From the NCBI RefSeq assembly GCF_010119205.1, contig NZ_WRXM01000001.1, positions 1,674,001-1,738,000 on the forward strand: a stretch of 64,000 nt of DNA, read 5' to 3'. A program made the translations under genes and the position numbers. Below the pieces are notes generated by a model. That model was given only the letters and a program-made list of their open reading frames with translations, was not told the DNA's origin and did not search any database. The DNA is from Haloarcula limicola. Lineage in GTDB: Archaea; Halobacteriota; Halobacteria; Halobacteriales; Haloarculaceae. Every line of letters begins with the position of its first letter. The first letter of the stretch is position 1. This document shows positions 11,269-55,426 of the stretch, piece after piece.

Positions 11269-12192
11269 ATGTCCCTCCGGCTGCCGAGTGAAATCGTCGT
11301 GCAGGACGTGTTGCCGACGCTGCGCGTCTTGCTGGCGCGGGAACTCTCGGCGCACGACCTCACCCAACAGGAAGTCGCGGCGCATCTCGGCGTCACGCAG
11401 GCGGCCGTCTCGACGTACGTCAACGGCGACCCCGACCTCGAACCGCGCGTCGCGGACCACCCCCGAACCGCGGAGACGGTCGAACGGGTCGCCGCGGGAC
11501 TGGCGGACGACGAGATGGACGGCTACGACGCGCTGGCGGCCGTGCTGGAACTTGTCCGCGCCTTCGAGGACCGCGGACCCGTCTGCGAACTCCACGAGGA
11601 GGCGATGCCGGAGTTAGAGGGGCTGGGCTGTGACCTCTGCGTCCGCGGCGCGAACCCGGAACTCCGCAGGGAACGCGAGGTCCTCGACAGCGTCCGCGAG
11701 GCGAGCCGCGTCCTCGCGACCACGCCCGGTATCGTCGGCTACGTCCCCAACGTCGGGACGAACGTCGGGACCGCCCTCCCCGGGGCCGACGCCGTCTCGG
11801 ACGTGGCCGCCGTCCCCGGCCGCATCTACGTGATGGACGGCAGCGTCGAGGTGCCGGCGAACCCCGAGTTCGGCGCGTCGAAACACGTCTCCACGACGAT
11901 TCTGGCCGCGACGGCCGTCGACCCCGACCGCCGCGGCGCGCTCAACCTCGCCACCGACGACGCGCTCCTCGACGCGGCCCGCGCGCGCGGCCTCGACCTG
12001 CTGGAGTTCGAGGCGGACTACGACGACCGCGGCGACCGCCTCCGCGAGCGGTTCGAGGACCGCGGCGCGGTCCCCGACGTGCTCTACCACCGCGGCGCAT
12101 TCGGCATCGAACCGATCACCTACGTCCTCGCCGAGACGGGCGCTGCCGCCGCTCGCTTAGCCGCCGAGTTAGTCGCGGACGCGGAGGAATAG
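11269..12192 (+). CDS. thiR: ThiR: HTH-ThiN thiamin-responsive transcriptional regulator
   Basis: A 307-residue two-domain protein. Residues ~20-60 form an XRE-like helix-turn-helix (HDLTQQEVAAHLGVTQAAVS). Residues ~130-305 form a ThiN (thiamin-phosphate synthase-like) domain with GIVGYVPNVGTNVG, FGASKHVSTTILAA and YHRGAFGIEP. A linker holding several cysteines (CELHEE, CDLCVRG) joins them and may bind metal. Archaeal ThiR regulators of this build repress thiamin synthesis and transport genes when thiamin phosphate binds the ThiN domain. Divergence from tenA-tenA-transporter fits that role. It is not the ThiD-ThiN fusion enzyme, since no kinase domain is present. Confidence 0.9.
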   Translation: MSLRLPSEIVVQDVLPTLRVLLARELSAHDLTQQEVAAHLGVTQAAVSTYVNGDPDLEPRVADHPRTAETVERVAAGLADDEMDGYDALAAVLELVRAFEDRGPVCELHEEAMPELEGLGCDLCVRGANPELRREREVLDSVREASRVLATTPGIVGYVPNVGTNVGTALPGADAVSDVAAVPGRIYVMDGSVEVPANPEFGASKHVSTTILAATAVDPDRRGALNLATDDALLDAARARGLDLLEFEADYDDRGDRLRERFEDRGAVPDVLYHRGAFGIEPITYVLAETGAAAARLAAELVADAEE

Positions 12193-12264
12193 CGGTTGCG
12201 GGCGGTGGCCGGGAGAGCGCTCCGTCGCGCGACCCGGGGAAGGGCAGGCCTGCTTGAGAAGCAT

Positions 12265-12556
12265 ACCGCGCCGGAGGCGCGGTTTCACCGAACTCGCGGC
12301 GTCGCCGCGAGTTCGGCCTTTTTCGCCCACGTTCATCAGAGCGAAGCTCTGATGCAGTCGTCCGAAAGGCGCAAAGCGCCTTTCGGGATGAACGGGGGAC
12401 TCTACGAGTCCCACGAACCTGCGAACGGGCGGCGTCGCCGCCCGTGAGCAGATGACGAGAGAGCGTAGCTCTCTCGAACCACCCATCAGAAGTCGCAGAC
12501 TTCTGAGGACGTTTTTCGAGGAGCGGTTCGAGCGCGCCGGAGGCGCGACTCGAACC
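12265..12556. repeat. array of nine hairpins, each with a 3-base loop
   Basis: Nine consecutive inverted repeats fill the space between the convergent genes thiR and cheF. Arms and loops are: 12265-12272/12276-12283 (loop GGA); 12288-12300/12304-12316 (GTC); 12334-12342/12346-12354 (GAA); 12362-12372/12376-12386 (AAA); 12396-12402/12406-12412 (TAC); 12425-12433/12437-12445 (GTC); 12456-12464/12468-12476 (GTA); 12486-12494/12498-12506 (GCA); 12525-12538/12542-12556 (GGA, one bulge). Eight are perfect stems of 7-13 bp. Loop centres are spaced about 28, 42, 30, 30, 31, 31, 30 and 44 bases. Stem sequences differ from one another, so this is neither a simple tandem repeat nor CRISPR. No plausible protein is encoded. 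A GCAGGCCTGC palindrome (12244-12253) precedes the array. Confidence 0.9.
12288..12323 (+). terminator. terminator-like hairpin with T run after thiR
   Basis: The second stem of the array, 13 perfect base pairs with a GTC loop, is followed at once by CCTTTTTCG, the layout of an intrinsic terminator on the plus strand about 100 bases after the thiR stop. Archaea usually rely on T runs alone, so the stem may not be needed for termination. Confidence 0.45.
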
Positions 12557-12577
12557 CGACGACGAAAAAGGTGGTCG

Positions 12578-13456
12578 CTAGGCGTTGACGTCCTCCAGGT
12601 GCCGGCTGGCGACGATCTTCCCCTTCGGGGTGAGCGTCGGGCCGTCCGGACCGTCCTGGACGAGGTTGTCCGCGTCGAGGTCTCGCAGGAGCATCGACAC
12701 CGCGGCGGAGTCCTTCCCGAGGATGTTGGCGAGGGGCATCCCCTCCATATCGCCGGTCGAGTACATGGCGACCAGCACCTCCTTCTTGTCCCGCGTGAGG
12801 TCGACGCTCCGGATCTCCTCCATCAGTTCGGAGTACTCCCGACGGAGGTAGCGGCCGAGGATCGACATCTTCCGGGGGGACGCGAGCGTCGCCATCGTCG
12901 TGACGGCGGTGCCGTCCTGCATGTGCCGGACCTCCAGAACGGGGCGTTTGCTGCCCGATACTTCCCGAGTGGTTCGGGAGAAGTCGGAGACGGTCTCTAA
13001 GTCGATGGCGAAGGTGCCGTCCTCGCGGCGGAACTCGACGGTCCCGGGAGACAGAAAGAGGCGAGCGGTCCGCTGGGCGTCGTCGGTGACGCGACCGCCG
13101 ACGCGGGCTCGCTCCTTGACCGTCGTCTCGGTGCCGTTGACGATCGCCTTGAACAGGAGCGTGCCGAACTTCTCGATCTTCTCGTCGCCGGCCTCGATGG
13201 CGGCGACGAGGCGGCGGCCGTTCTTCTCGAAGGCGACGGTCACCGTCGAGTCGAAGAAGTCGCCCAAGTCGGGGGGCACCTGCCCGATGGCGACGTCGAA
13301 GACCGATGACAGCGGAATCGTCAGCTTGTCGTCCTCGCTGGCGGCCAGTACCAGTCGCTTCTGTGAGAGGACCACCCGACCCTTGATCGGGTCGCTGCGG
13401 GTGGAGACCTCGGAGTTGAACTGGCCGACGAAGTCGGCGATGACTGATTCCGACAT
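12578..13456 (-). CDS. cheF2: CheF-type taxis protein (second copy)
   Basis: A 292-residue CheF (DUF439) paralogue of the protein at 7162-8031. It shares the same plan: KGRVVLSQKRLVLAASEDDK (~25-45), PLSSVFDVAIGQ, a middle domain with KRPVLEVRHMQDG, and a C-terminal winged-helix segment (~215-285) reading LTRDKKEVLVAMYSTGD. Archaea often carry two CheF proteins; in Halobacterium the pair act together at the archaellum switch. It is transcribed alone on the minus strand; a TATA-like CAATATACGG lies about 30 bases before the ATG. It is separated from the che operon by the thi genes and the hairpin array. Confidence 0.9.
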   Translation of the reverse strand: MSESVIADFVGQFNSEVSTRSDPIKGRVVLSQKRLVLAASEDDKLTIPLSSVFDVAIGQVPPDLGDFFDSTVTVAFEKNGRRLVAAIEAGDEKIEKFGTLLFKAIVNGTETTVKERARVGGRVTDDAQRTARLFLSPGTVEFRREDGTFAIDLETVSDFSRTTREVSGSKRPVLEVRHMQDGTAVTTMATLASPRKMSILGRYLRREYSELMEEIRSVDLTRDKKEVLVAMYSTGDMEGMPLANILGKDSAAVSMLLRDLDADNLVQDGPDGPTLTPKGKIVASRHLEDVNA

Positions 13457-55003: not shown

Positions 55004-55323
55004 CCAGAAAGCCCCGAGCGTCTCGACTCGCGTGTCTCGTTGCGCGCTTCCTTCGCTCACTACGCTCGCTCAGTCCAGTGCTTACGTCGTCAGGCTTCGG
55101 CCGAGACGCTCGCCCCTCTCAGTCCCAGCCCGTGGGTCGTCCGCTCGGGCCGGACTGAAAGGGGCCGCTCGCTGGGCGTTCGAGATCGTTCGAAAGGCGC
55201 ATAGCGCCTTTCGTGATGACGAGAGAGCTTCGCTCTCTCGAACCACGAAGTAAGGACCGCAGAGAGCGAAGCGAGCGAGGACCGCAGCAAGTCGCAGTAG
55301 CCCAGCGAGCGGGGGCTTTCTGG
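55004..55323. mobile_element. structured non-coding element with terminal inverted repeats (MITE-like)
   Basis: CCAGAAAGCCCC (55004-55015) and GGGGCTTTCTGG (55312-55323) are exact terminal inverted repeats bounding 320 bases. Inside: GAGCGTCTCG/CGAGACGCTC (55016-55025/55102-55111); CCCCTCTCAGTCC/GGACTGAAAGGGG (55113-55125/55152-55164, one mismatch); CGAAAGGCGC-ATA-GCGCCTTTCG (55191-55213); CGAGAGAGC-TTC-GCTCTCTCG (55220-55240); and repeats of AGGACCGCAG. No protein is encoded and no clear target-site duplication is seen. It could be a MITE-type element or a structured RNA. It fills most of the gap between rfcS and the SAMP gene. Confidence 0.6.
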
Positions 55324-55426
55324 CGGTTCACGAATCCGGTCCGTCTCGATACGGTTCATACAGAGGGCGAAGTCACAATAACGCCTAGCCGACACACTCA
55401 AGCCCACGATTACGATAGACAAGGCC

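Follow-up and report, generated by a model that had tools for sequence, protein, structure and literature searches.

What a row of nine closely spaced hairpins represents, and how it came to lie between two convergent genes, is the question raised by a locus of Haloarcula limicola that we studied within a stretch of 64,000 nucleotides (the window). A thiR-like gene (11269–12192, + strand), recognised by its open frame and codon score, faces the interval 12193–12577 with its 3′ end, and a cheF-like gene (12578–13456, − strand) converges on it from the other side; both names are those of a preliminary description of this DNA, and further species that carry the element described below have a homologous thiR-like neighbour. 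The nine inverted repeats with 3-nt loops claimed for this interval were all found again, namely 12265–12283 (hairpin 1, here PA; + strand, loop GGA), 12288–12316 (hairpin 2, PB; + strand, loop GTC), 12334–12354 (loop GAA), 12362–12386 (AAA), 12396–12412 (TAC), 12425–12445 (GTC), 12456–12476 (GTA), 12486–12506 (GCA), and 12525–12556 (hairpin 9, PC; + strand), whose perfect part surrounds the loop GGA. Their centres are spaced by 28, 42, 30, 30, 31, 31, 30 and 44 nt, as had been reported. Every one of the nine loops is closed by 5′C-G3′, and the two GTC loops can equally be read as 1-nt palindrome spacers. On the + strand, a T5 tract comes after hairpin 2 and another after hairpin 8; next to the cheF stop codon lies an A5 tract, which is T5 on the − strand.

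The array is not a product of chance, because by a strict count the 385-nt gap holds seven triloop repeats of at least 6 bp, whereas 2,000 first-order Markov sequences averaged 0.16 and never exceeded three. The comparison with randomised sequence, by which the preliminary description had proposed to dispose of the array, thus left it standing, and its other suggested way out, a decayed gene, does not apply to this interval. In the rest of the 64-kb window, no stretch approached the triloop density of the gap. The nine hairpins are nevertheless a composite, neither a single array nor phased: hairpins 1, 2 and 9 belong to an element of about 190 nt, and hairpins 3 to 8 are an insert. The impression that the stems are unrelated in sequence holds within the array and fails across copies, where every stem either turns up again as a module or occupies a position of conserved structure.

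A dispersed family of structured gene-end elements

The sequence of the thiR-cheF gap is repeated throughout at dispersed sites: a BLAST search of its own genome returned dozens of partial matches, and many more were found in relatives of the same genus. With R1, a covariance model of the 5′ domain, 17 copies were detected in the own genome at E ≤ 1e-3 (23 at E ≤ 0.1); the domain is present in 31 of 32 Haloarcula genomes, with 2 to 23 copies each, and R1 matches occur in 73 of 293 Halobacteriales genomes, while a sample of 247 genomes across the phylum gave none outside this order. Exact matches to the core pattern in bacteria (L183, L187, L190, L199) were taken as chance. Searches of phage and plasmid collections returned no match to the element, and Rfam gave nothing above the gathering score, the matches being sub-threshold and hairpin-driven (best CrfA, 26.7 bits against 38). 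Neither Rfam 15 nor the literature covered by our searches contained a description of the family. Comparison of the copies identifies the row of hairpins as belonging to a hitherto undescribed family of structured elements at gene ends, which occupies the same junctions across haloarchaeal species. Such elements, kept at the same junctions across a genus, are found across an archaeal order.

The composite element as a whole occupies 12207–12574 (+ strand) and comprises the 5′ domain, two T5 tracts, the inserted cassette, the 3′ hairpin and A5. Its core of about 190 nt has a conserved 5′ domain, consisting of a CCGGG hairpin and GGGGAAGGGCAGGC, and three T5 tracts, a pair on the + strand and a single one on the − strand. 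The hairpin P1 (12209–12237, + strand; CCGGG-AG-AGCGC-(TCCGTC)-GCGC-GACCCGG) shows compensatory changes and is supported by 107 distinct copies, and its loop is a conserved hexaloop, YTYYRT, across the family. The purine-rich core GGGGAAGGGCAGGC (12236–12249, + strand) has columns that are mostly 83–98% identical in the 107 copies. Aligned copies share the order GGCCGGGAG-stem-YTYYRT-stem-GACCCGGGGAAGGGCAGGC, a short variable stretch and GCAT, followed by PA, a conserved TTCACC, PB, CCTTTTT, an 8-nt linker, TTTTT, PC and AAAAAGG.

Conservation of the fold was evident at several levels. A MAFFT alignment of 12 copies had standard pairs in 91.7% of pair cells and double changes in 11 of 18 pairs; no shuffle reached the paired percentage, 1 of 500 reached the double-change count, and slid structures paired in at most 46%. 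For PA, 776 of 796 pair cells are Watson-Crick across the family. RNAalifold on full-length cores recovered P1, PA, PB and the T5/A5 stem, together with an unprompted pairing of GGAAGGGC with GCCUUUUU.

The stems obey a near-absolute closing rule. Among 243 stems of at least 8 bp in the 107 copies, 227 are perfect and 200 have 3-nt loops; 5′C-G3′ closes 198 of these 200 triloops, compared with 19 of 45 in flanking coding sequence. This C(NNN)G rule provides a means of telling apart selection on an RNA fold, selection on DNA and a palindrome-making mutation. The last of these would be snap-back template switching, in which a 3-nt loop closed by C-G lets one arm be copied onto the other, including the stop-plus-T5 end of the − strand gene onto the + strand. 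The perfection of the stems, the closing rule and the joint change of whole words on both arms (CCAC/GTGG, TCGAC/GTCG, GTA/TAC, TGAAC/GTTCA, CTAAA/TTTAG) are what it would produce; it leaves the conserved core, the linkers and the positions unaccounted for, and it would have to be restricted to such intergenic sites for no apparent reason, given 8.3 triloop repeats per kb in the elements versus 0.25 in coding sequence. We therefore regard it as very improbable.

The positions of the copies are strongly shared. For 85 of 109 copies, the flanking gene, side and strand are the same as those of a copy in another species, and many neighbours, as read by eye, resemble core genes. At the thiR-cheF junction itself, seven other species carry the element, and an eighth (L002) has a related gap with hairpins; in one species (L024) the gap is 83 nt long and lacks the element. 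Neighbours on both sides were predicted for 101 copies, of which 57 are placed between convergent, 40 between tandem and four between divergent genes; counting by position cluster gave 23, 23 and 3, versus 7, 25 and 10 for window gaps of at least 50 nt. Because the predictions rest on an ad hoc codon score, individual assignments may be mistaken.

Dispersed, modular and hairpin-rich copies could also suggest a non-autonomous mobile element (PATE, MITE or REP-like), moved by a Y1 transposase of the IS200/IS605 or RAYT type that reads single-stranded DNA hairpins. Haloarchaeal PATEs with near-terminal palindromes exist (PMC3119063), and the cassette within our copy did insert. The genome, however, lacks Y1_Tnp (PF01797), and copy number does not track this domain (17 copies and no domain in each of G000, the genome itself, and G044, three copies and four domains in G005). 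Most copies sit at shared positions, as described above, and likeness within a genome (0.70) is that of orthologues (0.71) and of unrelated copies (0.69). PATEs, moreover, leave no target duplication, and the cassette has one. Recent amplification or gene conversion was likewise sought and not seen, within-genome copies being no more alike than between-genome copies. With no Y1 transposase in the genome, and with copies that are old and lie at shared positions, active movement of the IS200/IS605 kind is disfavoured, and we judge the mobile reading of the family decidedly unlikely, although the core may have had an ancient origin as a mobile element. Without a link to Y1 transposases or greater likeness within genomes, the core behaves as an old inherited feature, and insertion is seen for the cassette only.

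REP/BIME elements are intergenic, lie at gene 3′ ends and are rarely found between divergent genes. Those of enterobacteria and pseudomonads resemble the present family as mosaics of recurring palindromic modules with proposed roles in termination and mRNA stability, and the family is likewise an intergenic palindromic repeat in many copies per genome. It differs in being longer and archaeal, with a conserved unpaired core and strict triloops, and in having neither a GTAG-type tag nor a RAYT: the alignments showed no GTAG/CGTC tag at the base of the hairpins, and no RAYT/Y1_Tnp (PF01797) was found in the genome. REPs usually exceed 100 copies (PMC2817692), and the haloarchaeal element has fewer. 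The PATEs and MITEs of Haloquadratum (PMC3119063) are similar in being short, transposase-free, palindromic haloarchaeal repeats, and the cassette shares with MITEs its short inverted ends and target repeat; the core, in contrast, is old, position-conserved and adjoins stop codons in a genome without Y1 transposase. The lack of PF01797 and a 3′ boundary at a stop codon also set it apart from PATEs and other IS200/IS605 derivatives.

T5C tracts and the 3′ ends of opposing genes

The first T5C tract of the window copy (12319–12324, + strand), a terminator-like site, lies just 3′ of PB, the second at 12512–12517 (+ strand), and GAAAAA (12564–12569), T5C on the opposite strand, is a candidate − strand terminator 8 nt after the cheF stop codon. 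This geometry recurs: past the 5′ domain, 96 of the 107 copies show at least one T5 tract and 84 show two, which in 74 are separated by 12–14 nt, and for 61 of 71 copies measured A5 is at most 11 nt away from where the convergent gene stops. The word before the second T5 and the word after A5 pair at 225 of 284 positions versus 133 in shuffles, or at 166 of 216 versus 102 when each position cluster and word is counted once, which makes the 3′ half palindromic, T5 being present on both strands. In the window, CCAC (12327–12330, + strand) pairs in this way with GTGG (12571–12574, + strand), the A5 tract forming part of the 3′ arm.

In Haloferax volcanii, RNA 3′ ends have been mapped to T-runs, and T5C gave 95% termination in a reporter (PMC7237163). 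By analogy with these tested sites, and because T5C is placed on both strands, the element probably stops transcription from both sides, termination at its own T5C being supported by transfer from Haloferax. The statement that a terminator does not explain the array thus holds only in part: T5C tracts are present on both strands of the element, but its hairpins far exceed what a terminator needs. The conserved GGGGAAGGGCAGGC is also more than a plain terminator would require. Like the element, the Haloferax T5C terminators are intergenic and lie just after gene ends, with hairpins upstream of some 3′ ends; unlike them, the element has two T5 tracts 12–14 nt apart and one on the opposite strand, an inverted repeat with covarying outer words, and tracts joined to a conserved folded domain (PMC7237163).

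Our preferred reading, which we consider reasonably probable, is that the element is a bidirectional T5C terminator with a structured 3′-UTR domain, into which a MITE-like cassette has been inserted, and that the folded domain would protect the RNA 3′ end. Transcripts of thiR would pass through P1, the purine core, PA and PB, which make up the folded domain, before ending at either + strand T5C, and those of cheF would stop at the − strand T5C past their stop codon. The domain would then stay on the RNA 3′ end, where its hairpins, which are GC-rich and have very stable triloops of the C(NNN)G type, may guard the RNA against 3′ decay; this protective role is suggested by the stability of the hairpins.

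Pairing of GGGAAGGGC with GCCUUUUUC might add to such protection. RNAalifold and single-sequence folding predict that the core GGGGAAGGGCAGGC could pair with GCCUUUUUC, which is the first T5 region, and a register swap agrees. In this swap, by which the complementarity of core and T5 is preserved in one or the other of two registers, CCC follows T5 in 16 of 32 copies without a preceding C versus 4 of 61 (Fisher's test, p 3e-6 by copy and 0.012 by position), and this swap, together with the RNAalifold pairing, supports a putative GGGAAGGGC-GCCUUUUUC clamp. The model is weakened by its modest free-energy controls, since core-to-T5 pairing exceeded a reversed-core control only modestly (38 versus 29 of 88 copies), and pairing with the own T5 was not clearly stronger than with the T5 of another copy.

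The T5/A5 palindrome argues against a purely RNA-level reading: it covaries, yet terminated RNAs would hold just one of its arms. Long-stem mismatches do not favour G-U (5) over A-C (4), contrary to an RNA-only constraint on one strand; the model alignment has 41 G-U versus 13 A-C, but it is itself fitted to the structure. Twenty-nine copies have an upstream gene whose direction differs from that of the element, so that the 5′ domain there would need another promoter or act as DNA. These features would suit an element acting at the DNA level (a cruciform, a supercoil sink or a nucleoid-protein site) at convergent ends, where positive supercoils gather, like a gyrase-bound REP/BIME, with transcription incidental. 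Perfect Watson-Crick stems and the convergent bias fit such an element. It would not, however, call for conserved unpaired stretches and a conserved hexaloop, for T5C tracts at fixed spacing beside stop codons, or for the strand bias of the loops (GNA 74 versus its complement TNC 36), and we consider it unlikely, although the constraint on the fold may act at the RNA or at the DNA level.

Beyond the bidirectional terminator with a structured 3′ domain that we prefer, we tentatively raise the more speculative possibility of a new archaeal class of 3′ ends, in which the tail GCCUUUUUC left after T5C would fold onto GGGAAGGGC, a compact multi-hairpin cap would shield core-gene mRNAs from 3′ decay, and the T5/A5 mirror would terminate the opposing gene. 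ENE/MALAT1-type ends are structured RNAs that protect 3′ ends. The likeness to them lies in a possible pairing of a U-tract with an upstream conserved element; here, in contrast, the purine core mixes G and A, the organism is archaeal, the end is a terminated one and not a poly(A) tail, and the model involves pairing only, with no triple helix. The locus offers a testable case of the insulation of opposing archaeal genes, of possible mRNA 3′-end protection in haloarchaea, and of the spread of hairpin cassettes into the gap between two terminators.

The inserted hairpin cassette

Hairpins 3 to 8 form a 175-bp cassette (12334–12508) flanked by ACGTT as a 5-bp direct repeat on the left (12329–12333) and the right (12509–12513). 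At the orthologous thiR-cheF site of H. amylovorans (L158), the linker CGCCCACGTTTTTCGAGG is uninterrupted, and in the window it is split by the cassette. The cassette ends, CATCAGA and TCTGAGG, are inverted at 6 of 7 bases, and a 94% copy lies at G000:C2:790918-791104. Terminal inverted repeats and a target duplication against an empty site, as in MITEs, are thus found for the cassette (12334–12508 only), on one clear filled/empty pair. From this pair it follows that six of the nine hairpins were added by insertion of a separate MITE-like hairpin cassette, and for these six the earlier suggestion of a hot spot where modules accumulate was borne out. The cassette would have entered between the converging terminators in H. 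limicola, giving rise to the row of nine. Since transcription from each gene would meet a T5C before reaching it, the cassette may see little transcription.

Within the cassette, a unit of four hairpins, H1–H4 (12357–12482, + strand; alignment A5, model R2), is found again in other Haloarcula genomes; its linkers (GTGATGA, GAACCTGCGAAC, GTGAGCAGATGAC, GAACCAC) hardly vary there, whereas the stem tips do, and 98.7% of pair cells are kept. Low-scoring R2 matches were left out, as the two-strand specificity of this model, mostly stems, is poor. In eight cassette copies, hairpin spacing (28–33) follows stem length at constant linkers, and the proposed protein-phased chromatin with three helical turns per hairpin is therefore rejected. 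The H3 hairpin (12419–12451, + strand), with an internal tandem G-A motif (CTGC-GA-ACGGGC...GCCCGT-GA-GCAG), is invariant in eight aligned copies. The GTGATGA linker is box-C-like.

Cassette modules also occur elsewhere. H3-type hairpins, TGCGAACGGGC...GCCCGTGAGCA, with the tandem G-A motif are found in many arrangements outside the cassette (L041, L043, L175, L205, L240), and the cassette unit lies within a different host element in L235 and L238. In the window, an intergenic structured stretch at 55100–55330, GGGCCGGACTGAAAGGGGCCGC ... GCCCAGCGAGCGGGGGCTTTCTGG, is closed by a stem and contains one hairpin each of module types H1 and H4 (55191–55240, + strand), and similar frames, CCAGAAAGCCCC...GGGGCTTTCTGG, surround the cassettes of L235 and L238; stretches of this type are possibly a second dispersed haloarchaeal RNA family. 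In one copy of the element (L041 / L076, G000:C1:808704-809084), a cassette-like hairpin pair is inserted beside P1 and closed by a long stem of its own, GTCAGAG...CTCTGAC. Pairs of copies of the element about 900 bp apart flank a hisH-like gene (L070, L072 at G000:C2:779490-780482, L161, L174, L176), and an RNase P RNA-like sequence adjoins one of these copies in G000.
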